From Owenia fusiformis (taxonomy: Eukaryota; Annelida; Polychaeta; Sabellida; Oweniidae), in assembly GCA_903813345.2 (NCBI GenBank), contig CAIIXF020000012.1, positions 599,318 through 663,317 of the forward strand: a DNA stretch of 64,000 bases, written 5' to 3'. Positions 3,002 through 64,000 of this stretch are shown here, piece after piece. Under the pieces are notes generated by a model that saw only the letters and a program-made list of their open reading frames with translations, did not search any database and was not told the origin of the DNA. A program made the position numbers and the translations under genes. Each line of letters starts with the position of its first letter. The first letter of the stretch is position 1.

Positions 3002-3746
3002 TTATCCCGTTCCAGGACTATAGTCCTGTACGGAGCCAATACATTTGCCTGTACGATTACAACTTGGGAGAATTATCTACACCCCTTCCACTTAAGAAAC
3101 CTACCTCATACATTCTACAACTCAAAATGTAACTTCTAATATATTGGAACCGCCGATTGTCTGGGTTAGTTGGCAGAACGAGGTCTTTTTGTTTCTTATG
3201 GCTCTTTTGGTCGAAGTTCGATTAAGATGGCGGTTATAACGGAATTTCCCGAACTCTTCCGTAATAGCACGAACTTGGTTTTTCGTTACGTCACTTCCGT
3301 GTAAAATGGATTTGTTTCGGGTAAGAGGGAATTTCGAAAATTTCGGACAATATTTTCAATATTTACTGCCATGTCGACATCCTATGCTCTTAACTGTATA
3401 CCGAATGGTTAAACAATGTTTCTTACCGGAAACAAATCCATTCTACATGGAAGTGAAGTAACGAAAAACCAAGTTCGTGCTATTACGGAAGAGTTCGGGA
3501 AATTCCGTTATAACCGCCATCTTAATCGAACTTCGACCAAAAGAGCCATAAGAAACAAAAAGACCTCGTTCTGCCAACTAACCCAGACAATCGGCGGTTC
3601 CAATATATTAGAAGTTACATTTTGAGTTGTAGAATGCATTGAGGTAGGTTTCTTAAGTGGAAGGGGCGTAGATAATTCTCCCAAGTTGTAATCGTACAGG
3701 CAAATGTATTGGCTCCGTACAGGACTATAGTCCGGGAACAGGATAA
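3002..3746. mobile_element. TTATCCC foldback element, copy 1
   Basis: Near-complete palindrome with arms of about 330 bp. Its ends read TTATCCCGTTCC and GGAACAGGATAA. It is flanked by an exact 8-bp direct repeat GGGCGAAG (2994-3001 and 3747-3754). Two related copies in this window (4061-5095 and 58975-59517) also have duplicated flanks. No transposase is encoded. An 8-bp duplication fits hAT- or P-like enzymes, but the terminal sequence alone does not settle the superfamily. Confidence 0.88.
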
Positions 3747-22396: not shown

Positions 22397-23040
22397 TTGT
22401 GCGAGACTTTGTTGCATGGTGATTTATAAACTTTCTAAAAGTTTAATTGAAGTTTGCAGACTTTATATAACAGGATCAATGAAGTATTACACGATGTGTA
22501 TTGAACATGAATTGAGAATAGCTGTGTTGTATAAACATTGATACATACTTTGATTAGCCAGCAACATGATCTAGGAAACCAGGAATCTTTATAAACCAAC
22601 TTTGAAGTTTAGTTGAAATTAATTTTTATTTGTAAGAAATTACAAAAATAGGATAGGAGGAAGTAATTTGACTTCAGGAGACAGGGTAGACACTAAGAAA
22701 ATAAGGTATGGTAGTTTGGTTTCATTTATATCTTTTAATTGACAAAATGAATTATTTTACTTCATATGTAATTGTTATTAAATATAGACTGCAACTAATT
22801 GAATTCATTCGTCTTTATCAAGTTATAGATCATGAATGTCACGCTAATTATGTCACGCTATCACGTTATTTGATGCAGTATATTCAGGCTGTAATATTTT
22901 ATAATTCATTAAAGTTTCGGTTACTTTCAAAATACCTGCCAGATTCTTTATGAATCGGAAAATGTCTAAATTCATACATGTAGATAAAAATTATGTTTAA
23001 AAATCTTTTAGGCTTCAAGACTGAACTGCAGTGTTTAGAA

Positions 23041-26000
23041 ATGTCAACAGTGTTCGTGCACACAGGTCTGAATCGGACTTCAACCCCGATACAAGTGACA
23101 GACACTCCAGATGATATCAAGAAAAAATATAAGAGGTACGATTTAAAGAAATTCATATGCATGACATAAATATAAGGCATCGCCAAAAATATTGATCAGA
23201 TATTTTGTATTGCCTATAAGCGTGCCTTTACTGGTTCTAATGTTTACATTTGTACTGGAGTCGAGATATACATTTTGTTAACCCCTTGTAATTAATAAAT
23301 AGTCCGCTGCATGTAATTAATGATTTGAAAGTAAACAAAAGTAAGTGCTATGATAAATTGTTCGATAAACTTTATTGATATTTTTTAATGTAAACATTTG
23401 TTTTATTCAAGAGGAAATTGTGAACTATTTAATGATATCCTATCCTTAGTGCCTTAGGATATATTTATTTTACCTTCATCAGAAAGTTATCTTGATCTTT
23501 CATGACTTGCAACAATTTCAGAGCTAATGGTCTTAATTTTACAATAAATAAGAATGCTTTTATGACCTTCTGACCTTGATCAAAGAAAGTGGAATTACAC
23601 CTCCTAATACCCCATTGGTCTTTAATTTGGGAAAATACAGAATACATATACTGAACATCAATGTTTCACTTAACCTCAATCAACAAAAGTTATTTGATAC
23701 CAAACAATTTACTGATTTAACATAAGAAATTAAGTAATATAATTATGATTATTATTTCAACTCCAGTAAAACCTGTAAAGTGAAACACCTCTTTAAGTGG
23801 AACACATTCTGTGTGGAATACTATTTTGAGGTTCCACTTAAACAGGTTTTACTGTATCCTCCATGTTCTTACAGGATTTCTGGATATAGGCCAGTCAATT
23901 GGTGATTTCACATCTGACAAATTGCAATAGTTTTGAAACATGGTTTAATTGGTGAATTGATATATATGTAGCAACATATTAAAAATATAGGAAAATATAT
24001 GTAGTGGACAAATATGAAATTTCACTTCTTAAGTACCCCCACCCCAATTTTGACTAGGGGTAAGGGAAAAAATAATTTCTCCATATTTGAATAGTTTTTA
24101 CATGTTTTTATGTTGTATTAGTTCAGGGGAAAGATTCAGGGTGGATTTAAATCTACTTTTAATGCATTTTTGTGCCAACAATTGACAATTTACCTCCCAA
24201 ATACACCAAAATATGTTGTCATATGGCCAAAATATTTGATAATAATGTATATATTTCTTAATTGCTTTATCCAAGAGCCATGGAAAAATTCATGGTAATA
24301 CTTCTATATACAGGTAATACACATATGGAATGCCGACTTCTCAACTTGCATATTGTTGAAGAAAAAAATATTTAAAATTTCAATTTTTTGCCCCGCCCAC
24401 TTTTGGGGTGACCTTACTTTTGCAATATAACTTCCAATATATACCACTTTGTCCTCAAATTTGATATCAAAATACAGATATAACCCATTCTGTCTTGTAC
24501 ATAACTTTTTATTGGAGTTATTTCCCCTGTCTTGTTAAAAATCTCATAATATGTTGGATGCAAGATGAAATATTAGGGTCCAATTACCGTTACTTAATAA
24601 CAACTGAGATATCACATCTCTATAGCTTAAATCAACTCTCATTTGAGAATACAACATGGTTTCCTGACCCATAAACTCTTAGTTATTTAATCATTAAACA
24701 ATTTTAAAATGAAACTTAGAAACACTAGCGCCATCTAAAATCCAAGGGTCGACTTCAAAGTTGATTTCAAACGTCACTGATCTTATTAGCAAGATGAAAG
24801 AGTTCATAAATGACAGTGAAATTGAACCCTATAGCTTTAAATACATGAAGAAAGAGCTGAAAGCATTCTTTGGTGAGAACCTTATCATCAGTGATATCCA
24901 AGGAATACAAAATGTTGTTACCTTTCATGACAATGCTGCCAAAATACTGCATGCTTTTCATCAACACAAAGGAGACCAAGTAGATGAAAAAGAGAAAATT
25001 ATAGAAACTGCAGCAAGTTTGATAGAAAGTGCCATAAAGGAAAAAAGGCAATCTCCCCAAACTTATCCTGAATATGACACAATGTCCTCCATCATTGAGT
25101 CATTAGACTTTTTACCTGACATTGTGTCGATGTTTTTGAACAAGTTCTTTGTTGGTAAAGATGTAGGCCACTCGTCCAAATGCCCTTTTGGCCCCATTAC
25201 AGCTTGGTATAGGTGTGCAGCTCCATCATCATTTCCAGTCAAGATTTCTGATTGACACACTTGACAAACATGGGTTTACTTGCTCATATTCTGAGGTCCA
25301 GAAGTTTGAAAGGAGTGCAGCATTGATGCAAAACACAGACATATCTGACATTACTCCTAATCATGTTGCAGATAATGTAGATCACAACATTCAAACTCTC
25401 GATGGCAAGAACACGTTTCATTGAATGGGAATTATTGCAACAGTCACACCTAAAGTGAGAACAACTCGGCCAGTGATCAGACATGATGTGTCTTCAGAAG
25501 ACATAGGGGTAATTGGTCGCATCAATACTCACTACTATTCAAATGACAATGCTATGTTTAGTAGTTTGAGGTATGAAGAGCTTGTGAGACAATCATTTGA
25601 TAAACCTTTAACAGGCTTTGATCTTGTGTGGAAATCATCCTTGCTTTTTAAGACTCCTTGTCCACTTTGGTCAGGATTTATGCAGATGGTTTATAAGGGG
25701 GACATCCTGGTGAATCTTCAGTCATTTTTCTACCTATGATAGATATGGACCCAGGTGACATGTCATGTATCTACTCCACTTTGAAGTTTGTTGCATCTCA
25801 TGCTGGACGGTACAACTGCACTCCTGTCATCACATTTGATCAGCCACTTTGGTGGAAAGCAAACAAAATTGTAGAAAATGAGCTAGAAGACAGTGATTTT
25901 CACAAAATGGTTGTAAGACTAGGGGGGTTTCATACCGAGATGAGTTTTCTTGGCTGTGTAGGCCACATCATGGAGGGGTCAGGATTAAATGCTGTCCTAA

Positions 26001-29000
26001 GCTTGGTATATGCTGAAAATACAGTTGGTCATATGTTATCTGGTAAGGCAGTTTCTAGGGCAGTTAGAGGCCCCCTTCTGATTGATAGTGCATTGAATAC
26101 TATGTTAGCAGCTCATATATATGACATTGATCTTGATCAGGCCAATGAAGAACAAAATGATTCACAAGAACAACCATTTGTAGAAGTAGAGAATGATAGT
26201 ACCCATATTGACCTGAAGGAATTGCATCTTGTCCTTTATAAGATAATAAATCATGTAATTCATGACAGTGAAAAGCTTCAAGCTGAGAAGGACTCACTTC
26301 AAAATCTAAAAACAGCAAAGCTATGGTTGCAATATATGGATATGATCGACCTATTTAGGAACTTCATAAAAGGAGAAAGGATTGGGAGTTGGACACTTCG
26401 TCTCCAATGTTTGCATGATATGTTGCCATATTTTGCAACAGCAGGTCACAATCGATACCTAAAGTCTGTATATCTTTATCTCCAAAAAATGAATAACCTT
26501 GAAAAACAGAGCCCAGAGGTATATGCCCATTTTATGAATGGGCTACATGTCATTCGTTGATCAGATAGGTCACAGCAGCCCCAGCTAGTAAGATTTAGTT
26601 GTAGTGAGGTCAAGGGCAGGACTATCTGCAGATCTCATAATTGAGCAATGCCTAATGCGAAACATCAAGTCAACAGGAGGTCTCACGAGAGGCCGGGACA
26701 TGGCTGAAGTTCAGCGTCTGGTGTGGATTCTTTCCTCACCTGCATGTCGAGAGATAAGCAGTGCAATGCAAGAACTCACTGATATAACATATGCCACAAG
26801 TGAGCAGCATAAAGATGCAACACCAACAAGAATCACCAAAGATGTAACAGATGCTAAATGTATCCTGAAATACCTTGTTGAAAGAAATCCCTTTTTCCTG
26901 AACAATCATTACGTAACATCGCAACAGGAGTTGCAGCTTCTTCTGTCAATGCATATGATGCAAAATAATTAGGCAACGTGATTGTGGCATCTATGATTGG
27001 GAAAAGGGTATCTGAGTGTTCTTTCAAAAGAAAAAGCCAAGCTGTGACCATGGGATCAAAAACTGCAGTCAAGGTTAACAATGAAGAAATACACATAGAT
27101 CCTATTTTGCTTTTTCAACGCCTTACCATAGCTGGTACACGATCTTTTGATTTGTCAGAGGCTCTAGGTTATGAGCTTTGTTCCTTTCCACCGGCTTTGT
27201 TTGAATCAAAAGGTGTAATGAGACCAGCGGTAGAATCACAACTGGCAGAAGCATTGTGGACACCAAAAATATCTTCCTTACAAGGGCCAAGTGACAAAGA
27301 TGTTCAACATGTGATTGATGGAGGCGCCCTTCTTCATCACATTCCTTGGCAAAAAGGTTTTACATAGGAGAACATTTTAAGCCAATATGTATACTATGTG
27401 CAGTTGAGGTACCAAAATGCTAAAATAGTATCTGATGGGTTCCAAAAAATTGCCCTAGCACAAAAGATGCAACTCATCTTCGTAGAAATGGAGGGAACAC
27501 CAGGACTGTAATCCAATTCATTAACACAATGAAACTCCAATGTAAGAAAGAAGATTTCTTAATGAATCAAACAAACAAGCAGCATTTTATTTTTCTGCTG
27601 TCAGAGCGACTAGAATCCATTGGTTGAGGTTTTCCCTGCAGAGCAGATGCAGACCTTCTCATTGTAGAGACTGCAATTGAATGTGCTGCAACTTCTGAGA
27701 CCATTCTTGTTATCCCACCGAACGAAGTTCGAGGGGGATATAGAAAAGCCGTTCGTCCGTCCGTCCGTTCGTCCGTCCATTCGTCCGTCCGTTCGTCCGT
27801 CCATTCGTCCGTCCGTTCGTGTATCCGGGCAATAACTCAAATACCGGTTGACGGATTTCATTCAAATTTTATAGGCTTATGCCTTATGGGTGTAGGACCT
27901 CTGCTCGAGAAGGAATTTTCAATATGGCCGCTTAATTCAAAATGGCGGCCATTTTTCGGAAAAAATATAATCTTTAATAACTCAAATACTAGTGGATGAA
28001 TTTGGTTCAAATTTTATATGCTGTTGCCTTGGTACAAAGGAGCCTTGCTCAAGAAGACATTTTCAAGATGGCCACCAAATTTCAAAATGGTGGCCATTTT
28101 TCGTAAAAAACCGTTATCTTTGATAACTCAAAGACCATTGAATGGATTTGGTTCAAATTTTATATGCTGATGCCTAGGGACAGAGGAGCTCTGCTCGAGA
28201 AAGGATTTTCAAGATGGCAGCTAAATTTCAAAATGGCGGCAATTTTTCGTAAAAAAACGTTATCTTTGATAACTCAAATACCATTGAATGTATTAGGTTT
28301 AAATTTTAGATGCTGATGCCTAGGGACATAGGAGCTCTGCTCAAGAAAGGATTTTCAAGATGGCAGCTTAATTTCAAAATGGCGGCCATTTTTCATAAAA
28401 AAACATTATCTTTGATAACTCAATTACCATTGAATGGATTTGGTTCAAATTTTACATGATGATGCCTAGGGACATAGGAGCTCTGCTCGAGAAGGGATTT
28501 TCAAGGTGGTAGCTAAATTTCAAAATGGCCACCAATTTTCATAAAAGAACGTAACCTTTGATAACTCAAATACCAGTTGACGGATTTATTTTCAAATTCT
28601 ATATGCTGATGCCTAGAGACAAAGAAGTTCTGCTCAAAAATAAATTAGTGGATGGATTTGCTTCCAATTTTATATGCTGATGTTTAGGGAAAAGGGAGAT
28701 CTGCTTCAGAAGAAATTTCAAAGGCAATAGCTGAATTTCAAAATGGCTGCCATTTTTCATTAAAAAAGTAATCTTTGATAACCCAGATACCATTGGACGG
28801 ACATTCTCTGATAAAGAAGAAATCTAAAGATGACAGCTGAATTTCAAAATGGCAACCATGTTTCATAAAGACATAATCTTTGATAATTCAAATACCAGTG
28901 GATGAATTTGGCTCAATTTTTTTTATCAAAACATGTTTTGTTCGGTGGGATTTGCTACTCCGTGGAGTTGCTGTTTTTCTAGTTGGAGATGACACTGATC

Positions 29001-32000
29001 TCCTTGTGCTGCTTATTCATCGCGCCCACAACATTGAACACAACATATTCTTCAAGCCTGAACCAAAGCAATCCACACACAAAACCAAAATATGGAACAT
29101 CAAAGATACAAGACTATCTTTAGGTGACATAGTGTGCAGCAACATCCTATTCATTCATGCGTTTCTTGGCTGTGATACTACATCAAGGCTATTTGGAGTT
29201 GGGAAACGGGTCTCAGAAAGGCAGATAAAGAAATCTGATGTCTTTCAGAAAAGTGCTTGTACATTTAAATTGCATGATGCCACACAAAACATGATATCAA
29301 AAGAAGGAGAAGCTGCCTTTGTATCATTATTGGGAGGTAAGCTTGGGCAAACCTTAAACAAATTGAGATTACAAAAGTTTCATGAGAAAGCTGCCTCTAG
29401 TCAAGAGTCTGTTCATCCAAAAGTGCTTCCACCGACATCTGATGCTGCAAAGCACCACAGCCTAAGGGTATATCATCAAGTACAAGCATGGATGGGGGTA
29501 AATCTTCCACCAGAAGAATGGGGATGGGAAATGAACAATGGCCACTATCTCCCAGTTGCTACAACTTTACCGGCAGGACCTTCTTCACTCTTGAAGTGAT
29601 CAAATGTACATGTAATTGTAAGACAGGTTGCACAACAATGCATTGCACATGTCGAAAGAATGGAATGGACTGTTCCATGGCATGTGGTGAATGTAGAGGA
29701 ATATGTGCAAATATAAATAACGATGACTAATTGCCAACCGTAATCTCTCTTGAAGTCCAAAATCTGCAATGCCCTGTAGCAGTCTGAGATAATAGTATTT
29801 TAAGATTTCACAAATCTTTCTAAATCAGTGATTGTACTTCCATTTTAAACAAATACACTATTATACCTTCACATAAGCACATAAATAAGTGCAATGGCCC
29901 ATAATTGGCACATTTGATTTGGTTTGATATAAATATATGTCAAAACATACAGTATTAGCCTTACAAAATACCCCCCCCCCCCATTTTCCAGATTTTTCAA
30001 ATTGCAGTTATAATTTTGTCCAAAACAGGAGTCCCAAACTCTAATGAAAGTTAATATTGGATGAAATATGTCCAAATCATTCTTTAAGTTGTAGAATTGT
30101 TAGGAAATACTGCATAGTTTGAAAATTATTTAGCAAAAGTAAGGTCACCCCAAAAGTGGGTGGGGCGAAAATGTAAAACTTATATATTTTTTTTCTTCCC
30201 CAATATGCCATTGATGATACTGGTATCCCATATATGTTATGTCCATATATACATGTATCACCATGATTTTTTTAATCATTTTGGAATGCACCAGTCTAGA
30301 AATATAAGAAAAGATACATGAAATGTCAATCATTTAATGACTCATTTGGGGTCGTCGAGGGTGAAACAAAAAATTCTAAGCCTCAAATAAAAGTTTACTT
30401 AGGTAAAAATTTATGTTTTGTCATTCTATTATCATAATATAACAAGAAAACTTGAAAAAACTATTCAATTATAGATAAAAAAAATTTTTTAAACAAATAG
30501 TCAAATTTAAGGGTGGGTCGTAGGGGGTACCTATGAAGTAAAATTTGACATTTGTCCACTAATTATATTTTCCTATATTTTTGATATGATATAAGGTGAA
30601 TATTGATCGACAATTTAAACTAAGTTTGCAAACTATTGCAATTTGTCCTAGGTTAGGCTGTTTTTTTTCACCAATTGACTGGCCTAATATGGTTTATATT
30701 AACAGTTACAGTATAGTCCACAGACACTTGAATTTGAATCAAAATGATTTGAGGAACCAAATATGTTCCACTTAAACAGGTTTTACTGTATCCTCCATGT
30801 TCTTACAGGATTTCTGGATATGGTTTATATTAACAGTTACAGTATAGTCCACAGACACTTGAATTTGAATCAAAATGATTTGAGGAACCAAATATGTTCC
30901 ACTTAAACAGGTTTTACTGTATCCTCCATGTTCTAACAGGATTTCTGGATATGGTTTATATTAACAGTTACAGTATAGTCCACAGAAACTTTAATTTGAA
31001 TCAAACTAATTTTGTGGAGTATCCAACATGTGTAGAATATGTGAGATTCACACCACGATCAAGTCGGGTGCTTGTATATCGAGAGCGTATTCCTGAGCAA
31101 TGGTTGTGATGTGTCTTCAATATTGAACATGGATTTAATATATTCTTCTTCAGTCTCTTTTTGATGACATACATGAATAAGTTTTCAACTCCTGCCCTAT
31201 TGATGGGGAAGGTTAGAAAATTCAAACTCCAGTCATCAAAAGCTGTGTCCATGTAAAAGACATGAACATCATGGGATCCGTTGTATGGCTCTGCGCATAT
31301 AGCTTTTGCGGTATATGACTTGCAGTTTGCTAATAAAGTAGGATGTCTGGTCAAACAATAAGCCACCTTGCCTTCTGTTAAATATCTCATTTTTATCAGG
31401 TCAAAGCCGTTGCCAAGAGACACATCGGCATTCATAACTGCAATCGTCTTTTTCATTAGATTCTCATTGGTGTATTTTGCATAGTCGTTGTAGGTCGGGT
31501 AATGTGACAGTTTATGAAAGTGAACCATCTTTTTTATCTCAGACGTGTAGGGTTTCGTTAGATTGTGTGTCTTTATGTAATCTTCTACTGCCATGTTATC
31601 CACGAGTAAATGTATTCTTTCAACACACGGGTGCTGCATATTCAACAATAGACTTTGGACAAAGTCCATTTGACGCTTTTCAAACTGTACCAAAGATCGC
31701 CTAAAAAATCCACGTTCATTTAGGTCATCGTTCGAATTCAAAACAGGGAATGTTGTGATAATATTGAGCATGACATCACAAACAGTATCAACTTCAATCA
31801 GTTTTGTCATTCCAGTTTTTGCGTTTTTCTGGTCTAAAGATTTCTCATTTTTTACAGTTGTTTTTATTGTTGTTCGTTGTCTATTTTCTAACTTATTCCA
31901 TGTCAAAACCAACACTGTTGTCAGTAATATTGCAAAAAGTTCTTTCCTGAATTTCATGGTAACAGCTTTCAAAGGTGTTTATTCCGAATAACACAATACG

Positions 32001-35000
32001 CACGATTCTGCAGTTGTCAAGCCTATTGGCTCTCATGTATTTATAAACTTTTCTTCATTGTAAAACTCAGTGAGGTGTGAAGTCAATGAAGTGTGTATTT
32101 TAAAAAGATAATAAACTTCATTGCATATTATTCTTGCAAACTGAATGACTGTGAATTGAAGTGCATGTGTATTGAAAGAGAAAGTTTTTCTTCATTGTAA
32201 AACTGAGTGAGCTGTGAAGTCAATGAAGTGTGTATTTTAAAAAGATTATAAACTCTATTGACATATCCTTCAGGTAAATCTAGATGACTGTGAACTCAAT
32301 GATGCGTGTATTTAAAAAGATTAAAAAGTCTATAGCTGCTTCCTATAAAACTCAATATCTGCATGCATGTGAATGGTGTGTGTTTAAAAAATATTATTCA
32401 AGTCATACTATAAGACCCCACGGACTTGAAAGACAATATATTTTTCATGTATGTGAATATTCAAATCCTATACAGGGTGGTCTAAAAAAAGTACAGTTAT
32501 GGTCCATAAATAATTAGTCATGGATTTCCTGAAGTGAGGATTTTCAAGGACAAACATCAGTGGATGAGAGTCTACAAAATGTAAATAAAATATACAAATT
32601 TTAGGGGATATGTATCTGGATAATATTGGAAACTATGGCCTTCAAAACCACTATGATTTGGAATTATTTTTGGCCCAAACTGAACATTTATTGAACAAAT
32701 AAAAATTCTCTATAAGAATACATGTACATGTATGCCAAATATTTATTATGCATTATTCAAAAGAATTTACCTGAAATTTTATATAAACTTACATTTATAT
32801 CCCATTTTAAAAGAAATTTAATCCAATCTATAGCTATATTTACATAACACATAAAAATACAACTTGATGCATTACCTATTTTTGGGTTTAAGTACAAAAT
32901 ATAATGGTGCAATAATATATATATATATATTTATTTCAATAATTGTATTTTAATCATTTTTATAATTGAGACAAAAAGGGATTTAATTTTTTTAATATGC
33001 TTAAAGTGTAAAGCTCTGATCAAACTTTATCACAATTACTAAGTTTCATGATTTCTTGAATCTTAATTGCTAAAATGAAATTAATGTTGTCTGCTAAGTA
33101 CCATAGTGCATTATGGGTAATATGATTTATGGTTAATATGATTTCAGACAGTCACATGAAGAAGAATGGCCACCAGAGAGTCCAGTTGCAAGAGTCTATG
33201 ACTTACAAAACTCCTCAACTCGCATGATACTCATGAACAATAGATTTAGAAAGGTATGCATTGAATTTCCCATTGTACTCTATAACAGTATATGTGTAGT
33301 AAAACCTGTGTAATGCCTTGGTCACATTTGCTCCGATTTTCACTATGGCGCCCGGCCGATTGAGTATTTTGTTCAAAATTGAATACAATATTGAACAAAA
33401 CACTCAATCGGGCGGGCGCTGGCCGATGGATCTGAGCAAATGTGACCCAGGCATTAATTGGACACCTTTCAGGGGAGGATCTGGGAACCGACAAAGGGGG
33501 GACCCAAATTTCAGGTCAGAAAAAAAAACTTCCGTGCAAAATTTTGGGCCTTTAAAACCCAAATTTTGAAATTTGAGGCCCATTTTCTTCAAAATTTGGC
33601 CTGAAATTAAAAATAAGGCCTTATAAGGCCAAGTAATGACCAAAAAAGGCCCACTTTTTGGAGCCTTTTTCCCAAATTTTTTTGGGCCCAATTTTTTTTT
33701 CTGGGCCCACCCAAGGGGGGGGCCCAGATCCGCCAGTGCCTTTGGTACAACACAATAAAGTTCTACTTAGAAGGTGATTCACTTTTTGGTTCAATATACA
33801 TTAATTTGATGAGTAATGGGGAAGTGTTCCATTTATTGAGGTGTTCCACTTTCAGAGGTGTTCCACTTATTGAGTTGTTCGACTTATATAGGCGTTCCAC
33901 TTACATAAGTGTTCCACTTACATAGGCATCCCACTTATATAGCTTTTCCACTTCCATAGGTGTTCAACTTATATAAGTGTTTGACTTACATAGGTGTTCC
34001 ACTTACATAGGTGTTCCACTTACATAGATTTTCCACTTACAGAGGTGTTCCACTTACATAGGTGTTCCACATACATAGGTCAGGTGTTCCAATTGACAGG
34101 TTTTACTGTAGATAGTGCTACTAGGAATTTCTAAAATCATCTAGCCTTGCATTAGACACACTGTAATTTAAATATTGTTATTTTGATCTTTAGCCTACTA
34201 ACAGATTACGTGGACATGGAATCAAGCAAGATGAGGCTGAAAGTGGTCGATCTACACGCTCTAGCACTCCAGCTCCATCTATAAACACAGACAGGCACTT
34301 TCAAGGTATAATCTAAGGAGAATTATAGAAGAAATTGATATTATGTAAAAGAGATTTAAAGGGAGAAGGAATAGAAACATGATGGGAGAAAATTTCGAAA
34401 AAAATCAAATCTTTTATTATAGGTAATTTAACAACTTGCATACATGAAATGTGATAAAAAATAAGGTATTATAAATAATTTCAATAAAAGCAAAGACTCA
34501 ATGGGTCATATTTTGTAAGGGCACAAGATTGAATGGGTCATATTTTCCAAGGGCACATGATTCAATGGGTCATATTTTTCAAGAGCACAAGATTCAATTG
34601 GTCATATTTTGCAAGTGCCCAAGATTGAGTGGGTCATATTTTGCAGGGCACAAGATTCAATGGGTCATATTTTTCAAGAACACAAGATTCAATGGGTCAT
34701 ATTTTTCAAGAGCACAAGATTCAATGGGTCATATTTTGCAAGGGCACAAGATTCAATGGGTCATATTTTTCAAGAGCACAAGATTCAATGGGTCATATTT
34801 TTCAAGAGCACAAGATTCAATGGGTCATATTTTTCAAGAGCACAAGATTCAATGGGTCATATTTTTCAAGAGCACAAGATTCAATGGGTCATATTTTGCA
34901 AGGGCACAAGATCTTTGACCTTATCCTTGCCTTATCTCATAGCCTTTGCAACCTCTCTTACTTTACAATATTTCAGAATCCTGTCGAAATGATGCTCACC

Positions 35001-38000: not shown

Positions 38001-39689
38001 TTATCTCTATCTATCCTTCTTTATTTTGTTTGTCAGAATTTTACTCCATTGTTTTCAAATCTGTTAATGATTTTTGATGATATATCTTTAAAAAGTTATT
38101 TAAGGAAAATCGACTCCTCTACTATTTTGTCTGCGCAACTCTGATGTCACATAATCATTCATTTTGAATTTTCAGATGATGAAAAGCCTCCTGAAAGCAC
38201 CAACCAAGCTGATCCATCAAGTAAGGACAGTGACCACAATGATTCAGCATCTGATAAAGAAGATCCTAAAGCAAATGAACAAGATCCTAAAGCAAATGAA
38301 CAAGATTCAACTGCAAATGATCATGATTCAAAATCCAATCAACATGGTTCTACAAATGATCATGAGATTTCATCAAGAGAGAGTGATGATTCAAACTTGA
38401 ATGACAATGATTCAAACTTGAATAACAATGATTCAATATTGAAAGACCATGGTTCAAGATCAGATGACAGTGATTCAAACAGGGACTCAGAACTCAAATC
38501 AATCAAAAATGAAAAATCTGAAAAACAAAAGGTAAGACGCAATAAGAAGAAAAAGGCTAAATCAAAACCAGTTGAAACAGATATTCCAAATGAAGATGAT
38601 CCATCCCCTAATGAAACCATTAGGAATTACTCTAAAAGTGAACAAAATCCTGCAAATGATGACGATAGTCCAAAATTTCAAGATGATCATTCCCTGAAGG
38701 AAGAATACCTTCAACAAAATGACCAATCCACTCAAGAAAATGATCCATCTCCAAAACAAAATGATCAGTCCACAGAAGAAATTGATTCAGAGAATAACGA
38801 TGCATCAGAACCGGAGAATGACGATAATAAAAGTGACATAACTGAGTCTAATGATGAATATTCTAGGCAGATGAAGGAAAATTATGATAACACTAATCAA
38901 CAAAGAGAGAGTGACAATGATGATAAACATGACACCAATAATCAAGAACGTGATATGAAAGATGAGAATCAAGATTCCAATAGTGAAACAGAGGATACCA
39001 ATCATGAAAATCATGATACCAATGGTGCAAAGGAAGATACCAATGTCGAAAATCATAAAATCAATAGTGAGAATCATGAAACCAATGCTGAAAATCATGA
39101 TACACATGGTGAAAACTATGATACACATGGTGAAAACTATGATACACATGGTGAAAACAATATTGTGGATTCATCTGAGGATATTCAAAGAGATGCTACA
39201 GCTGACGACACCAACCAACCCACAAATGATGAAATTGAAAGACATTTTACACAAAAGGACAATGAAGATGAAATGATACAGAATCAAAATGAGAAATCCA
39301 AAAATAATGATACATTTGAACAAAATAATGTTTCAACTGAACAAAATTATGACCAAAATGAAAATGATAATGATTCAAATGAACAAAAGAATGATTCAAA
39401 TGAACAAAAGAATGATTCGAATGAACAAAATTATGACCCAAATGAACAAAATAATGTTTCAAATGAAAAAAATAATGACTCAAATGAAGAAAATGTTGGC
39501 CAAACTGATAGAAAAGAAACAAATCTTGAAAAAGAAGAAGTAAAACCTGGATCTGCTGCAGACTATAACAATATCGTAAAAATTGTCAAATTGAAAAGAA
39601 AAATGGCCGAACGATCCGACAGTCGGGTTTCAATCACATTTAGAAATAAGTATTACGATGGGGCAAAAGAAGACATGGAAGAGGATTAG
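23041..39689 (+). CDS. FAM216A: FAM216A-like protein with long acidic C-terminal tail
   Basis: Coding exons: 23041-23135, 33148-33253, 34194-34305, 34977-35102, 35391-35672, 36806-37040, 37537-37730 and 38176-39689. All join in phase and give 887 residues. Residues about 199-255 (HPDFSSGQRQYLWSIANIY, then LKTLKQKQYGDIL) match the conserved core of FAM216 proteins, whose function is not established. A Ser/Pro/Arg-rich section (about 270-320) follows. The last exon alone codes residues about 384-887, an almost uninterrupted Asp/Asn/Glu/Ser/Lys/Gln tract with short internal repeats (NDSNEQK, NHDTHGEN). That tail is far longer than I know for FAM216A. An acceptor at 23011 before the start implies a leader exon upstream. 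Poly(A) signals lie at about 40537 and 40566. The exon structure is more certain than the family name. Confidence 0.72.
23765..23862. repeat. Small foldback ending ACAGGTTTTACTGTA
   Basis: AGTAAAACCTGT and its complement bracket internal AAGTGGAACAC motifs. The same family appears at 17861-18003, 30760-30920 and 33298-34108. It is probably a non-autonomous DNA transposon. Confidence 0.65.
24761..29730 (+). pseudogene. Degraded transposon protein, nuclease-like and CXC domains
   Basis: Successive frame segments (24761-25255, 25188-25424, 25425-25739, 25736-26560, 26604-26972, 26978-27367, about 27560-27712, 28930-29599 and 29590-29730) read as one protein broken by frameshifts and stops. Examples are a TGA at 25422 and frame changes near 25190, 25736 and 29590. 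The order is an N-terminal helical region, SRFLIDTLDKHGF, PMIDMDPGDMSC, GLSADLIIEQ...GGLTRGRD, then ADADLLIVETAIE, VGDDTDLLVLLIHR and FLGCDTTSR, and finally nine cysteines in CTCNCKTGC...CRKNG...CGEC spacing. The DADLLIV/DDTDLLVLL pair resembles acidic residues of PIN/XPG-type nucleases. It is an inactive copy of a large multicopy element protein seen in many marine invertebrates. Confidence 0.72.
27711..28951. mobile_element. Tandem-core element inserted into the transposon gene
   Basis: Ends ATCCCACCGAAC and GTTCGGTGGGAT are inverted repeats. After a GTCCGTCC-rich microsatellite come about seven units of roughly 144 bp with a TTTGATAACTCAAATACC core and AAATGGCGGCCATTTTT blocks. It separates ADADLLIVETAIE from GDDTDLLVLL of the transposon nuclease domain. 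Its structure resembles the element at 14617-16275. Confidence 0.75.
30690..31010. repeat. 131-bp tandem repeat
   Basis: GGTTTATATTAACAGTTACA starts at 30691, 30822 and 30953, giving two full copies and a partial third. A further partial copy lies left of the Academ-like element (23830-23886), so the transposon landed inside this array. The partial third copy overlaps the 3' end of the minus-strand gene that ends at 31001. Confidence 0.88.
31001..31972 (-). CDS. Putative type II membrane protein, glycosyltransferase-like
   Basis: Single-exon frame of 323 residues, antisense inside intron 1 of the FAM216A-like gene. A short basic N-terminus (MKFRKE) precedes a hydrophobic anchor (LFAILLTTVLVLTW, about residues 12-25). 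The rest looks lumenal, with N-glycosylation sequons and several cysteines. The blocks HLLVDN, then TIAVMNADVSLG (about residues 177-188) resemble the nucleotide-sugar-binding core of GT-A fold enzymes, where N-[AS]-D motifs serve like DXD. No donor or acceptor specificity can be inferred. Met-6 (codon at 31957) is an alternative start. No intron and intact coding suggest a retrocopy or an intronless family. The function is inferred from architecture only. Confidence 0.6.
   Translation of the reverse strand: MKAVTMKFRKELFAILLTTVLVLTWNKLENRQRTTIKTTVKNEKSLDQKNAKTGMTKLIEVDTVCDVMLNIITTFPVLNSNDDLNERGFFRRSLVQFEKRQMDFVQSLLLNMQHPCVERIHLLVDNMAVEDYIKTHNLTKPYTSEIKKMVHFHKLSHYPTYNDYAKYTNENLMKKTIAVMNADVSLGNGFDLIKMRYLTEGKVAYCLTRHPTLLANCKSYTAKAICAEPYNGSHDVHVFYMDTAFDDWSLNFLTFPINRAGVENLFMYVIKKRLKKNILNPCSILKTHHNHCSGIRSRYTSTRLDRGVNLTYSTHVGYSTKLV
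32045..32300. repeat. Imperfect tandem duplication
   Basis: Segments containing TTCTTCATTGTAAAACT and GTGTATTTTAAAAAGAT recur two to three times with a period of about 140 bp. No coding signal is present. Confidence 0.7.
32490..32685. mobile_element. TA-inserted element related to the one at 4231-4710
   Basis: Ends ACAGTTATGGTCCATAAATA and the inverted TTTTTGGCCCAAACTG. Its interior (TACAAATTTTAGGGGATATG, TTGGAAACTATGGCCTT) is the reverse complement of the interior of the 4231-4710 element, so both belong to one family. Confidence 0.7.
33314..33453. mobile_element. Nested palindromic element
   Basis: TGCCTTGGTCACATTTGCTC and its near-complement GAGCAAATGTGACCCAGGCA bracket a strong hairpin (GATTGAGTATTTTGTTC and its complement). 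It lies inside the composite element at 33298-34108. Confidence 0.75.
33470..33738. mobile_element. hAT-like GGATCTGGG element
   Basis: Ends CAGGGGAGGATCTGGG and CCCAGATCCGCCAGTG match as inverted repeats of the widespread CAGTGGCGGATCTGGG type, usually assigned to hAT-related elements. CCTTT is repeated at both flanks, but a full 8-bp duplication is not clean. Confidence 0.65.
34496..34915. repeat. 32-bp minisatellite before a FAM216A-like exon
   Basis: About thirteen copies of a unit around ATTCAATGGGTCATATTTTT end about 60 bp upstream of the acceptor of the exon at 34977. All frames over it are open by repetition and are not genes. Confidence 0.92.
35720..36070. repeat. About 30-bp minisatellite after a FAM216A-like exon
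   Basis: Imperfect copies of a unit like GAGAAAGATGAGGTTAAAAC start about 50 bp downstream of the donor at 35672. Purine-rich on the plus strand. Confidence 0.88.
36306..36497. mobile_element. Small inverted-repeat element
   Basis: TTACACTCCCC and GGGGAGTGTAA bracket about 170 bp, with a second inner inverted pair (GTCTGGTTA and TAACCAGAC). It lies in the intron before the exon at 36806. Confidence 0.7.
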
Positions 39690-40828: not shown

Positions 40829-43800
40829 TAGACTAATAGGTCGCCTATAGAGTCAATTAACAATCAACAACCAAACAGTTTCAGATACAGAAGTAACATT
40901 AATAATCATGTATAGGAACCCGGCCAGTGCGGACTGAGAGTCGGTTACTGGAATACAGATGGCTTCACTTCAGGGAAATCAAACCCCAGAAGTGAGGAAA
41001 GCTTTGTTTTTAAACTTGAGACAATTCAGAACTTTAACTTTGATATTATTGGTATTTCAGAAACATGGTTGAAACATGAAGATGTACCTGAACTGCCTGC
41101 TGATTTTCCATATATTTGGTATGGTCAAAACAGAGGCACAACCCACGCAAGAGCAAATAGAGGCTCAGGTGGTATAGGTTTCTTAGTACATAAACGTTTG
41201 AAGAAATGCTTTAATGTGAAAATATTGAAAAATAACTTTGAAGGAATACTATGGATAGAATTAAAACATAAGGTTAAACATGACATGACAGTAAATGTAT
41301 GTGTATGTTATTTGCCCCCAGACAGATCTACACATTTATATGATTCTCAAACATTTTTTGAAACATTACACTCAAATATCTGTGACTTCCAAAATGATGG
41401 ATATGTAATAATTGGAGGTGATTTTAATGCCCGCTGTAATGATGACACTGACTACATAGAGGGTGTCGATGAAATATGTGAGCGTGAAATTATTGATCTG
41501 AATAGCAATAAGCATGGTACTAGTCTAATAGACTTCCTCATAGATACAAACTTCTGTATGCTAAATGGTCGAAATAATGGCAAAAATGACTACACTTTTA
41601 CTTCTATAAATGGAAAATCAGTTGTTGACTACATCATAGTACCTCATGAACATCTGTGTCTTTTTAACAATGTCAATATTTTATCTATGTCATCTTGTAT
41701 TAACATGTATAACAGTTCAATTCCATCTCATCTTCCAGGCCACTCTGTTCTTGAATGTACTCTGGGTATAAACTGGTCAATCAACTCTACTAAAAGGAAG
41801 AACAGCCAACACAGATTGACAGGCAGTGTGAAATATAAAGCAAACTCCACGCCCTCAGACTTTCTAATGACAGATGCCACCAAAGAACAGGTAGAACAGA
41901 CAATAGTCAAAATAGAGTCCGCAATAAAAGATCATAACAATATAAACCAAGCATATAATGAATTCATCTCTTTAATGATCTCAGAGATGGACAATAGACT
42001 TGAAAAAGTAAAAATAAATACAAATATCAAATTTAATAAAAGTAGATCGAAACCATGGTGGAATAATGATCTCAGCCAACAATGGGAAAAGGTCTGCCAG
42101 GTAGAACGTCAATGGAAAAAACCTACAACACATAAGCGACAAAAGCGAATATATCATGAACAATATAAAACTGAACGAAAATTCTTTGATATCGCCCTTA
42201 GAAGGGCAAAACGCCTCTATCAGAGAAGTATCCAAGATGAAATTCTTAGCGACTTAAATGATGACCAACCAACTTTCTGGAAGAAGATTGGTAGAATAGG
42301 CACAGGAACAAATAGAACAAGCAAAATTCCCATGGAAACTCTAAATGAACAAAATGAAGTCATCACAGACACACACGAGGTATTGGAAAAATGGAGGAAA
42401 GAATTTGCCAAGTTATTCAGTGATGCTAACAATAGTAAATTTGATGAAACACATTTGACAAAAATTAAGGACAATATAAATAGAATGGAACAAGAATATA
42501 ATGACATAACGAGCCAGAACACAACTACAGATACATCTGAATCAAATCTGCCTGATGCAACTCCACTTAATCTCGACATAACTAGAAAAGAAGTCAATGA
42601 TGCAGTGAAAAGAGCAAAATCCAACAAAGCAGCGGGATGCGACCTGATTCCACCCAATACTCTGAAAAATCCCAAATGTGTTGATATCCTACACAGAATC
42701 ATATCACATTGCTTCAGAACAGGCACAATACCAGATGACTGGACAAAAGGCATAATCAACCCCATCTATAAAACCTGCAACAATGACCAGCGTATCCCCC
42801 TCAACTATAGAGGCATAACACTACTATCTGTACCTAGCAAGATCTATAGTGGTGTTCTTAACAAAAGGCTTAGTCGCTGGCTGGAAGACAACAATATCCT
42901 AGCAGATGAACAAAATGGATTCAGGATACTCCGAAGCTGTATAGACCATATACACTCCCTGTATACAATAATTCACAACAGGAAGCTACAGAGGCTCGAT
43001 ACATTCGCATGTTTCGTGGACGCCAAGCAAGCCTTTGATCGGGTCAATCATGCCTGTTTGTTCTATAAATTACTTAGAATAGGCGTCCGAGGAAACATGT
43101 ATTATGCTATAAAATCACTGTATGCTAATGCAAAGTGCTCTGTGAGGGTGAATGAACATCAAACCAACTACTTCCCTATATTATCGGGCGTTCGGCAGGG
43201 GGACCAGATTTCTTCGACCCTCTTCAACATCTACATCAATGACATGGCCCAAGAAATCAAGGAGCTTAACATGGGAGTCCCCTGTAATGACGAAAATGTG
43301 TCAATCCTACTATATGCAGATGATGTGGTATTTATCTCGGATTCAGCCCAAAACCTTCAAACAATATTAGACAAGTTACAACAATGGTGCAATAAGTGGC
43401 GCTTCACTATTAATGATACAAAAACCAAAGTTATACACTTCAGAGCAAGTACAACACCTCAATCAGACCATGTTTTTATGCTTGAAGACACAGTGTTGAA
43501 GTACACAAGTGAATACAAATACCTAGGTCTCTGGTTCAACGAACACCTAGACATGACAAGTACAGTGAGACACCTGGCTAAATCAGCAGGAAGAGCACTT
43601 GGCTCAATCAACACCAAATTCAAAGAAACTGGAGGAATCCAGTATGATGTCTACACCAAGCTGTTTGACAGTATGGTTGCTCCAGTGCTACTATATGGAG
43701 CAGGTGTTTGGGGTACCAAACCATATGGTCTAATTAACACCATTCTCAACAGAGCCTGTCGTTTCTTCCTAGGAGTTAAAACAACAACACCAACTCTAGC

Positions 43801-44811
43801 CACCCGTGGAGACATGGGATGGCTATCAATGGAATCACGACAAGATATTGAAACAGTAAGACTATGGCAGAGGCTGGATAAAATGACAAATTCAAGGATA
43901 AACAAAAGAATATTCAACTGGTCAAATGAACAAGCTGATACCCATAGAATGAAAAATTGGACATTTTACGTCAAAAAATCAATATCAACAAAATATAGAA
44001 ATACTACTTTATCAACGCCAATGACAACCTTCAAAAAACAAGTCTCAAAGTTTGATGCAGAAAAATGGACACAAGAACTGAGTAAAATAGGACCAAATAA
44101 TAAACTAAGAACTTACAAAACAATCAAAAGTGAGTTTAAGCCTGAAAGCTATACAAAAATCAACCTCCCTAGATATCAAAGAAGTGCACTCTCCAAACTA
44201 AGATGTGGAGTTTTACCACTGAAAATAGAAACTGGGAGATTCACCAAACCCAAGACACCCCTTGAAGACAGGACATGTGAAATGTGTGATGATCATAAAA
44301 TTGAAAATGAACAACATTTCCTTGTAGAATGTCCGGCCTATGAGGATTTAAGAAGCATTATGATATCAGAAGCTCAAAGCAGCAACCCTGACTTCCTAAA
44401 CAAAAGTAAAAATGACCAGTTTATAACCCTGAGTACTTCTCCAGAGATGGCTTTTATTGTATCTAAAACTGTATTCCTTATGTACAAACACAGACAAACA
44501 AATATGTGATAAACAAAGATTATGTAGTTAGTAAATATTAATGTATTTATTTATTTTTTTTTAGAAACTACTACATTGTATCTTATGCTATATGGGCAAT
44601 GATTTAGCCTATGTGACAAATTATTGATCGACAGTCATTTGACATAACTATATGTGCAATACTTCTAATATACATGTATGAAACGTCTCTCATAAGCCGC
44701 ACTGGCTGGGGCAGTGTTTTTATTATGACATTTTAGTACTATTAGTATCTGTAAAATAAATCTGCTGTGAGACGAAAATAAATAAATAAATAATAAAAAT
44801 AATAATAATAA
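40829..44811 (+). mobile_element. Non-LTR retrotransposon (LINE) inside a minisatellite
   Basis: About 4.0 kb lies between two parts of one minisatellite, with GAT repeated at the junctions (40826-40828 and 44812-44814) as a probable short target duplication. The 3' end is an (AATAA)n/(AAT)n tract, typical of LINEs that end in a microsatellite. The first 87 bp before the frame may be a 5' UTR remnant. One open frame covers most of the element. No ORF1 or RNase H domain was recognised. Confidence 0.9.
40916..44509 (+). CDS. LINE endonuclease-reverse transcriptase polyprotein
   Basis: Open frame of about 1197 codons with no stop or frameshift. The N-terminal AP-type endonuclease begins LRVGYWNTDGF and carries GISETW, GGDFNAR, SVVDYI and LPGHS (the usual catalytic E, D, N and H motifs). 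The reverse transcriptase has LNYRGITLLS, FVDAKQAFDRV, GVRQGDQISSTLFNIYIND and the catalytic YADD (about residue 800). The C-terminus has a CEMC...H...C zinc-knuckle-like motif common in Jockey/I-type elements. No ATG precedes the endonuclease in this frame: TAG at 40913 is followed directly by the coding frame. The copy is either slightly 5'-truncated or uses re-initiation or a non-AUG start. The intact frame suggests recent insertion. Confidence 0.9.
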   Translation, partial: EPGQCGLRVGYWNTDGFTSGKSNPRSEESFVFKLETIQNFNFDIIGISETWLKHEDVPELPADFPYIWYGQNRGTTHARANRGSGGIGFLVHKRLKKCFNVKILKNNFEGILWIELKHKVKHDMTVNVCVCYLPPDRSTHLYDSQTFFETLHSNICDFQNDGYVIIGGDFNARCNDDTDYIEGVDEICEREIIDLNSNKHGTSLIDFLIDTNFCMLNGRNNGKNDYTFTSINGKSVVDYIIVPHEHLCLFNNVNILSMSSCINMYNSSIPSHLPGHSVLECTLGINWSINSTKRKNSQHRLTGSVKYKANSTPSDFLMTDATKEQVEQTIVKIESAIKDHNNINQAYNEFISLMISEMDNRLEKVKINTNIKFNKSRSKPWWNNDLSQQWEKVCQVERQWKKPTTHKRQKRIYHEQYKTERKFFDIALRRAKRLYQRSIQDEILSDLNDDQPTFWKKIGRIGTGTNRTSKIPMETLNEQNEVITDTHEVLEKWRKEFAKLFSDANNSKFDETHLTKIKDNINRMEQEYNDITSQNTTTDTSESNLPDATPLNLDITRKEVNDAVKRAKSNKAAGCDLIPPNTLKNPKCVDILHRIISHCFRTGTIPDDWTKGIINPIYKTCNNDQRIPLNYRGITLLSVPSKIYSGVLNKRLSRWLEDNNILADEQNGFRILRSCIDHIHSLYTIIHNRKLQRLDTFACFVDAKQAFDRVNHACLFYKLLRIGVRGNMYYAIKSLYANAKCSVRVNEHQTNYFPILSGVRQGDQISSTLFNIYINDMAQEIKELNMGVPCNDENVSILLYADDVVFISDSAQNLQTILDKLQQWCNKWRFTINDTKTKVIHFRASTTPQSDHVFMLEDTVLKYTSEYKYLGLWFNEHLDMTSTVRHLAKSAGRALGSINTKFKETGGIQYDVYTKLFDSMVAPVLLYGAGVWGTKPYGLINTILNRACRFFLGVKTTTPTLATRGDMGWLSMESRQDIETVRLWQRLDKMTNSRINKRIFNWSNEQADTHRMKNWTFYVKKSISTKYRNTTLSTPMTTFKKQVSKFDAEKWTQELSKIGPNNKLRTYKTIKSEFKPESYTKINLPRYQRSALSKLRCGVLPLKIETGRFTKPKTPLEDRTCEMCDDHKIENEQHFLVECPAYEDLRSIMISEAQSSNPDFLNKSKNDQFITLSTSPEMAFIVSKTVFLMYKHRQTNM

Positions 44812-45867: not shown

Positions 45868-58203
<12,336 letters not shown>

Positions 58204-63003: not shown

Positions 63004-64000
63004 TAGGCTGTTCAATAAGTAATGACACTAAGGCTCTCATTTTGTCAAATTTTGCTTGTTTTATCTCAAATTTTCACCATATGTTGAAAATACATTTGTC
63101 TATTTATATGCGGAAAATCACCAGATATAACTAATAATAACCAGTAATTTGGTTGCCATAGCAACATGAGGATACAGCACTTGACTTGGATCCAAATCAA
63201 TAAGAATGATAAGAATGATGGCCCATCAGTACATGGTTTATACCCCTATCTTTCTTGAGTATAGTGGATTTCGAAGCATACTTTTTGTGTTTATGTTTTA
63301 TGTTTATGTTTTGTGTTTGTTTTGTGTGTATGTTGCTATGGTAACTAAATGGTATGACATCACAGTTAATTTCTCAAAAGTAGGGAATCCAATGAGTCAT
63401 AATGATCATAGACTCTCCAAAAAAGGGAAAAGTCCTGAAAACTGCAAAAACATGAGTTTGGCACTACAGCAAAGGAGTTCAATAAAAACATTTGTATTGC
63501 TTGGGAAACAAGCAAAAGATATAGTGCAGTATTTCCAGGAGGCTTATGGTAATGACTCTATGAGTAAGAGATCAATTTTCCGGTGGTGCAAAATGTTCAA
63601 AGAAGGAAGGAAAAGTGTGGATGATGATGATCTCAGTAGGAGGCCAAAGTATGAAAACAATGATGAAAAAATTGAAGAGGTTAAAGGCCTGGTTGACACA
63701 AACAAACTTCTTTGAACATTTTTAAACATAAACACAAAACATAAACATAAAACATAAACACAAAAAGTATGCTTAGAAATCCACTATACTCAAGAAAGAT
63801 AGGGGTATAAAACATGTACTGATGGGCCATCATTCTTATCATTCTTATTGATTTGGATCCAAGTCAAGTGCTGTATCCTCATGTTGCTATGGCAACCAAA
63901 TTACTGGTTATTATTAGTTATATCTGGTGATTTTCCCCATATAAATAGACAAATGTATTTTCAACATATGGTGAAAATTTGAGATAAAACAAGCAAAATT
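63004..64000. mobile_element. Mariner-type element with long inverted arms (runs off the window)
   Basis: The left end AGGCTGTTCAATAAGTAATG is a mariner-like terminus. About 320 bp of the left arm (to about 63330) is repeated in inverted orientation from about 63725 to the window end, with a block such as TTGGTTGCCATAGCAACATG at both sides. The terminal part of the right arm lies outside. Between the arms is a truncated transposase frame. Confidence 0.85.
63392..63715 (+). pseudogene. Mariner transposase fragment, DNA-binding domain only
   Basis: The open frame encodes about 107 residues from the ATG at 63392 (63452 is an alternative). QQRSSIKTFVLLGKQAKDIV, then YGNDSMSKRSIFRWCKMFKEGRKSVDDD is the helix-turn-helix region found at the start of mariner transposases. 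The frame ends at VDTNKLL, just where the inverted arm begins, so the second HTH and the whole DDE/D catalytic region are missing. It could still be translated and bind transposon ends, but it cannot catalyse movement. Confidence 0.85.

Follow-up and report, generated by a model that had tools for sequence, protein, structure and literature searches.

A degenerate DNA transposon, very probably of the AcademX type, interrupted by a nested HINE-like insert in Owenia fusiformis

The window, by which we mean the whole 64,000 nt stretch of DNA that was analyzed, contains an element of 6,800 nt (positions 23887-30686) that is set between two copies of ATA, carries a long inverted arm at either end, and is filled by a single broken gene on the plus strand. 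The features of the element and its target are as follows.

23884..23886, no strand: target site duplication ATA, left copy
23887..24461, plus strand: left terminal inverted arm, 575 nt, opening with the 18 nt TAGGCCAGTCAATTGGTG (local alignment)
24713..29730, plus strand: broken transposase gene (pseudogene), ending at TAA 29728 (open frames)
25697..26557, plus strand: longest open piece, 287 aa, which may belong to an RNase H-like (DDE) core
27311..27669, plus strand: XPG/FEN-like block, first half, with VIDGG at 27311, VSDGF at 27428 and ADADLLIVE at 27643 (comparison with FEN by eye)
27712..28984, plus strand: HINE-like insert (non-autonomous Helentron), 1,273 nt (subTIRs, inner IR, CCGT microsatellite, monomers and palindrome)
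28985..29206, plus strand: XPG/FEN-like block, second half, with GDDTD at 28985, LGCDTTS at 29165 and FGVGK at 29192
29599..29727, plus strand: CXC-like tail with ten cysteines (open frame; 13.0 bits against Pfam TCR, under the cut-off)
30095..30686, minus strand: right terminal inverted arm, 592 nt (local alignment)
30687..30689, no strand: target site duplication ATA, right copy
30687..31012, plus strand: 2.5 tandem copies of the 131-bp target repeat, with the site uninterrupted

The ends of the element are a perfect inverted pair of 18 nt, TAGGCCAGTCAATTGGTG, at 23887-23904 on the plus strand and 30669-30686 on the minus strand. With up to three mismatches allowed this sequence matches the window twice, both times at an element end; 100 shuffles gave a mean of 0.05 matches, and none of them had two. 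The best local alignment of the arms (23887-24461 against 30686-30095) contains 427 identical positions, 121 mismatches and 71 columns with gaps, and scores 226 against a maximum of 39 among 200 Markov-resampled control pairs. Identity is 78% over the aligned bases and is patchy, with exact runs of at least 12 nt starting at alignment columns 0 (18 nt), 39 (18 nt), 104 (19 nt), 125 (12 nt), 221 (13 nt) and 552 (28 nt). The last of these, CCCACTTTTGGGGTGACCTTACTTTTGC at 24396-24423 and 30133-30160, lies close to the inner ends of the arms and may be a second protein-binding site.

The insertion target is itself a 131-bp tandem repeat, which the element splits. The adjoining copies on the right-hand side carry GGATATGG unbroken, and because these neighboring copies are uninterrupted the ATA can be read as a target duplication; they are neighbors of the occupied copy and not an allelic empty site. 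A first-pass annotation of this DNA had described a bounded element at 23887-30686 with a 3-bp ATA duplication, arms of about 550 bp, and an empty-site copy of the target in the adjacent 131-bp repeats. The 18 nt ends and the flanking ATA copies confirm the boundaries, the arm alignment confirms the long arms, and the uninterrupted GGATATGG bears out the target, as neighboring repeat copies and not as an empty allele. A search of the window for a second copy of the element (blastn, E≤1e-3) found none. We note that a 17-bp array, GTGTTCCACTTATAGAG, at 33790-34112 has GTTCCACTTA in common with the 131-bp target repeat.

The pieces of the gene read as one protein from position 24713 to the TAA at 29728, interrupted by five premature stops (25422, 26558, 26966, 27365 and 27625), by about six changes of frame as judged by reading, and by the nested insert. 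This copy of the element is a dead fossil. The insert splits the gene between its ADAD and GDDTD motifs, and it has an architecture of its own. It is bounded by 12 nt subTIRs at 27712-27723 and 28940-28951, with a complementary IR placed 3 nt inside the left subTIR (hairpin of -11.8 kcal/mol), a CCGT microsatellite at 27749-27820 followed by 5.5 tandem monomers of 146 bp, and a palindrome after the right subTIR (28954-28971, -5.5 kcal/mol). Its right border is placed by inference, since GTT is common to both borders. HINEs of the oyster Crassostrea gigas are described as having subTIRs of 11-12 nt, the left one followed by a complementary IR, then a microsatellite, satellite-like monomers, and a palindrome after the right subTIR, and several of them have GTCC-type microsatellites (PMC7492417). 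The insert thus shares with these HINE or Pearl elements, the non-autonomous Helentrons of bivalves, the 12 nt subTIRs, a complementary IR set 3 nt in from the left subTIR, a tetranucleotide microsatellite of the CCGT/GTCC type, monomers of about 146 bp and the 3′ palindrome. It differs in having an extra palindrome (28927-28940) immediately before the right subTIR, and the likeness is one of plan. The presence of such an insert within the fossil helps to order the insertions at this locus.

The C-terminal third of the protein is where its most suggestive motifs lie: read by eye, the acidic motifs follow the order seen in FEN/XPG proteins, VIDGG, VSDG, ADAD, DDTD and GCD, and then GVGK. We expressed the last part of this series as a pattern (DxD, 40-70 aa, GxD, 7-9 aa, [IV]G, and K within one or two residues). 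Of 29 distinct archaeal FEN proteins, 25 carry this pattern and four do not. The element protein matches with a span of 72 aa, inside the FEN range of 65-83; the pattern arose by chance in 12 of 200,000 shuffles, and among the 211 window open reading frames of at least 60 aa it was found in the element protein alone. The pattern was written after seeing the element protein and therefore counts as support and not as proof. Profile comparisons were made with an archaeal FEN alignment whose 30 rows represent the 29 distinct proteins, with the query L032 present twice and the L035 protein absent. All six pieces compared with it by hhalign had probabilities under 0.5%; with 60 shuffles per piece none of four pieces (p8, p6, p7 and p7b) exceeded its best shuffle (13.3 versus 24.5 for p8), and the scores of p8, p6 and p7 fell under the shuffle mean. 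A search of five pieces with the FEN profile (hmmsearch) gave E values of 0.21 for p8, in the right register, and 0.22 for p6, in the wrong one. The acidic motifs and the GVGK turn of the element protein are thus ordered and spaced as in the FEN1/XPG nucleases, but its profile similarity to them is not significant.

In the tail, the open frame at 29599-29727 encodes ten cysteines, and not the nine reported at first pass, and its cysteine stretch aligns to positions 3-36 of the 38 in the Pfam model of the Tesmin/TSO1 CXC domain (TCR), but at 13.0 bits (E 0.14) it falls short of the curated cut-off of 23.5. The first-pass reading of an XPG-like block joined to a CXC tail therefore stands as a series of motifs and a CXC-like tail, while the profile searches do not reach significance. 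Going by the motifs themselves, the acidic residues together with the CXC-like tail would suit a protein that binds DNA and acts as a nuclease.

Searches of domain and structure libraries were likewise silent for the pieces submitted. Among nine pieces compared with Pfam none had a significant match, the weak ones being DUF7805 (E 0.086), DUF349 (E 0.18), TCR (E 0.73) and VESA1_N (E 2.2); a second set of five pieces gave none either, with TCR at E 0.14, and none of the pieces submitted to Pfam matched a helicase model. The profile search for XPG/PIN and CXC domains that the first-pass annotation had put forward as a check thus returned no significant match in the pieces searched. NCBIfam had no significant match to three transposon pieces, a PDB search with two pieces gave a best E of 0.092 for one (an arsenate reductase) and no match for the cysteine tail, and Rfam at gathering thresholds had no match in 23000-32000. 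AlphaFold models made without relatives were poor (pLDDT 39.7 and 44.1, the latter for the 287-aa piece), and no structure matched the latter model in Foldseek at E≤0.001. Residues 8-75 of this piece are predicted to form a beta-alpha-beta-alpha-beta series (block-mean pLDDT 49 to 79), an order that would suit a portion of an RNase H-like fold.

We also looked for relatives of the element elsewhere. No relative was recovered from viral contigs by protein-derived scans with the 28877-29599 and 25697-26560 pieces, by motif scans for GDDTDLLVL and TFDQPL, or by scans with two arm blocks, and tblastn of the 25697-26560 piece against phages had no match. A scan of genome contigs for GDDTDLLVL identified 29 prokaryote loci, against which four pieces (p3, p4, p6 and p8) were compared by tblastn. 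The lowest E value, 5.6e-5 for p3 at locus L029, falls in an open frame that reads as a sodium-symporter-like gene, and the motif at this locus is antisense to an open frame read as RNA polymerase alpha; both were taken as chance. At locus L027 the matches of p3 (E 0.054) and p4 (E 1.3) lie in the same symporter-like gene and the motif is antisense to a polymerase-like gene, and they too were attributed to chance. The viral, phage and prokaryote sequences searched thus yielded no relative of the element.

The AcademX lineage of the Academ superfamily is reportedly due to Kapitonov and Jurka in 2010 and Kojima in 2020. Its nuclease is XPG-like, and proteins of a similar kind occur widely among the gene sets of marine invertebrates. 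The element described here has terminal inverted repeats and a 3-bp duplication. AcademX elements are given duplications of 3 or 4 bp and AcademH elements 9 or 10, a difference that the author ties to nuclease versus helicase, AcademX being the one that codes for a nuclease (PMC10045372). Academ is listed as one of the DDD/E superfamilies (PMC9587614), and a specific amplification of Academ is described in bivalves, with 100 curated consensus elements of mean length 5,565 bp in one library (PMC10294476); the repeats tabulated for the Mercenaria genome also include Academ-1 (PMC8905726). Without its insert the element is 5,527 nt, close to that bivalve mean, which is a typical and not a defining length. 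Because the 3-bp duplication and the length fit the printed description, as the candidate nuclease block may do, we file the element as most likely AcademX, and it is very probably a degenerate full-length DNA transposon of this type, as judged from published descriptions. It shares with AcademX, as so described, the duplication, the terminal inverted repeats, the approximate length and, putatively, the nuclease-like block, and differs in being a pseudogene copy with a nested insert. The original Academ-like reading is thus partly supported, by a bounded element with inverted repeats and a duplication of the printed AcademX size, while no domain match to the pieces searched is significant.

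An intact element of this kind would have coded for one long protein, the middle of which is a candidate DDE transposase that would cut at the TAGG ends. The excised element would then be joined to a target across a 3-base stagger, which would account for the duplicated ATA, while the putative XPG/FEN-like nuclease in the C-terminal third might trim branched or flapped intermediates and the cysteine-rich tail would bind DNA. The ends and the duplication are footprints that can be seen; the DDE activity, a nuclease function, a tail that binds DNA, and the superfamily are what we infer.

Several other readings deserve consideration. The element could be a TIR transposon from a different known DDE superfamily that duplicates 3 bp of its target, such as Harbinger or EnSpm/CACTA, its likeness to XPG having arisen by chance. 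Harbinger and EnSpm/CACTA also make 3-bp duplications, so that the duplication is common to such superfamilies, and the XPG profile matches are not significant. However, the transposases of Harbinger and EnSpm have Pfam models, and no Pfam transposase model matched the pieces submitted even at E 10; moreover, the element ends in TAGG and not in the CACT of EnSpm/CACTA, and its target is ATA and not the TWA of Harbinger. We regard this explanation as unlikely. It is least probable of all that a host gene was simply caught between chance inverted repeats with no transposon involved. The gene is indeed broken and a second copy was not found in the window, but exact 18 nt ends abut an exact 3-bp duplication, and the uninterrupted neighboring target copies already contradict this account, leaving it a negligible chance.

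A superfamily without a name, in which mobility is due to the XPG/FEN-like nuclease or to a catalytic core not yet described, would agree with the failure of every library searched to name a domain significantly, and the DDE core of the protein is a candidate only. Yet the silence of the libraries says little, and the anatomy, length and duplication agree with AcademX as described in print, so that we consider a new superfamily very improbable. That the FEN/XPG-like nuclease moves the element without any DDE chemistry seems more doubtful still, although if true it would define a class of transposons with a flap-nuclease transposase.

Most likely, the element is a previously undescribed and inactive representative of a transposon type that is already known. 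The suggestion at first pass that it newly links a gene family to a DNA transposon finds no support, because Academ is already in print as a DDD/E superfamily (PMC9587614) amplified in bivalves (PMC10294476); the link of gene to transposon is probably not new. What the element adds is one further fossil, with a clean insertion site, of a superfamily reportedly expanded in bivalves, and on its own it opens no new question.

Other features of the window include high-identity inverted repeats with short spacers at 1053-2067 (413 nt, 97%), 3108-3639 (219 nt, 98%) and 48943-49165 (109 nt, 99%). A 514-aa open frame at 38145-39689 (plus strand) is rich in Asn, Asp and Glu, contains 21-nt repeats, and has no Pfam match at E≤0.01. 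At 40916-44509 (plus strand) a LINE-like open frame of 1,197 aa has RVT_1 (E 3.6e-38) and endonuclease domains. Finally, inverted arms of 276 nt that are 98% complementary lie at 63048-64000, the right arm running to the end of the window, and an open frame between their outer limits (63185-63715) matches the Mos1 HTH_48 domain (E 1.9e-5).
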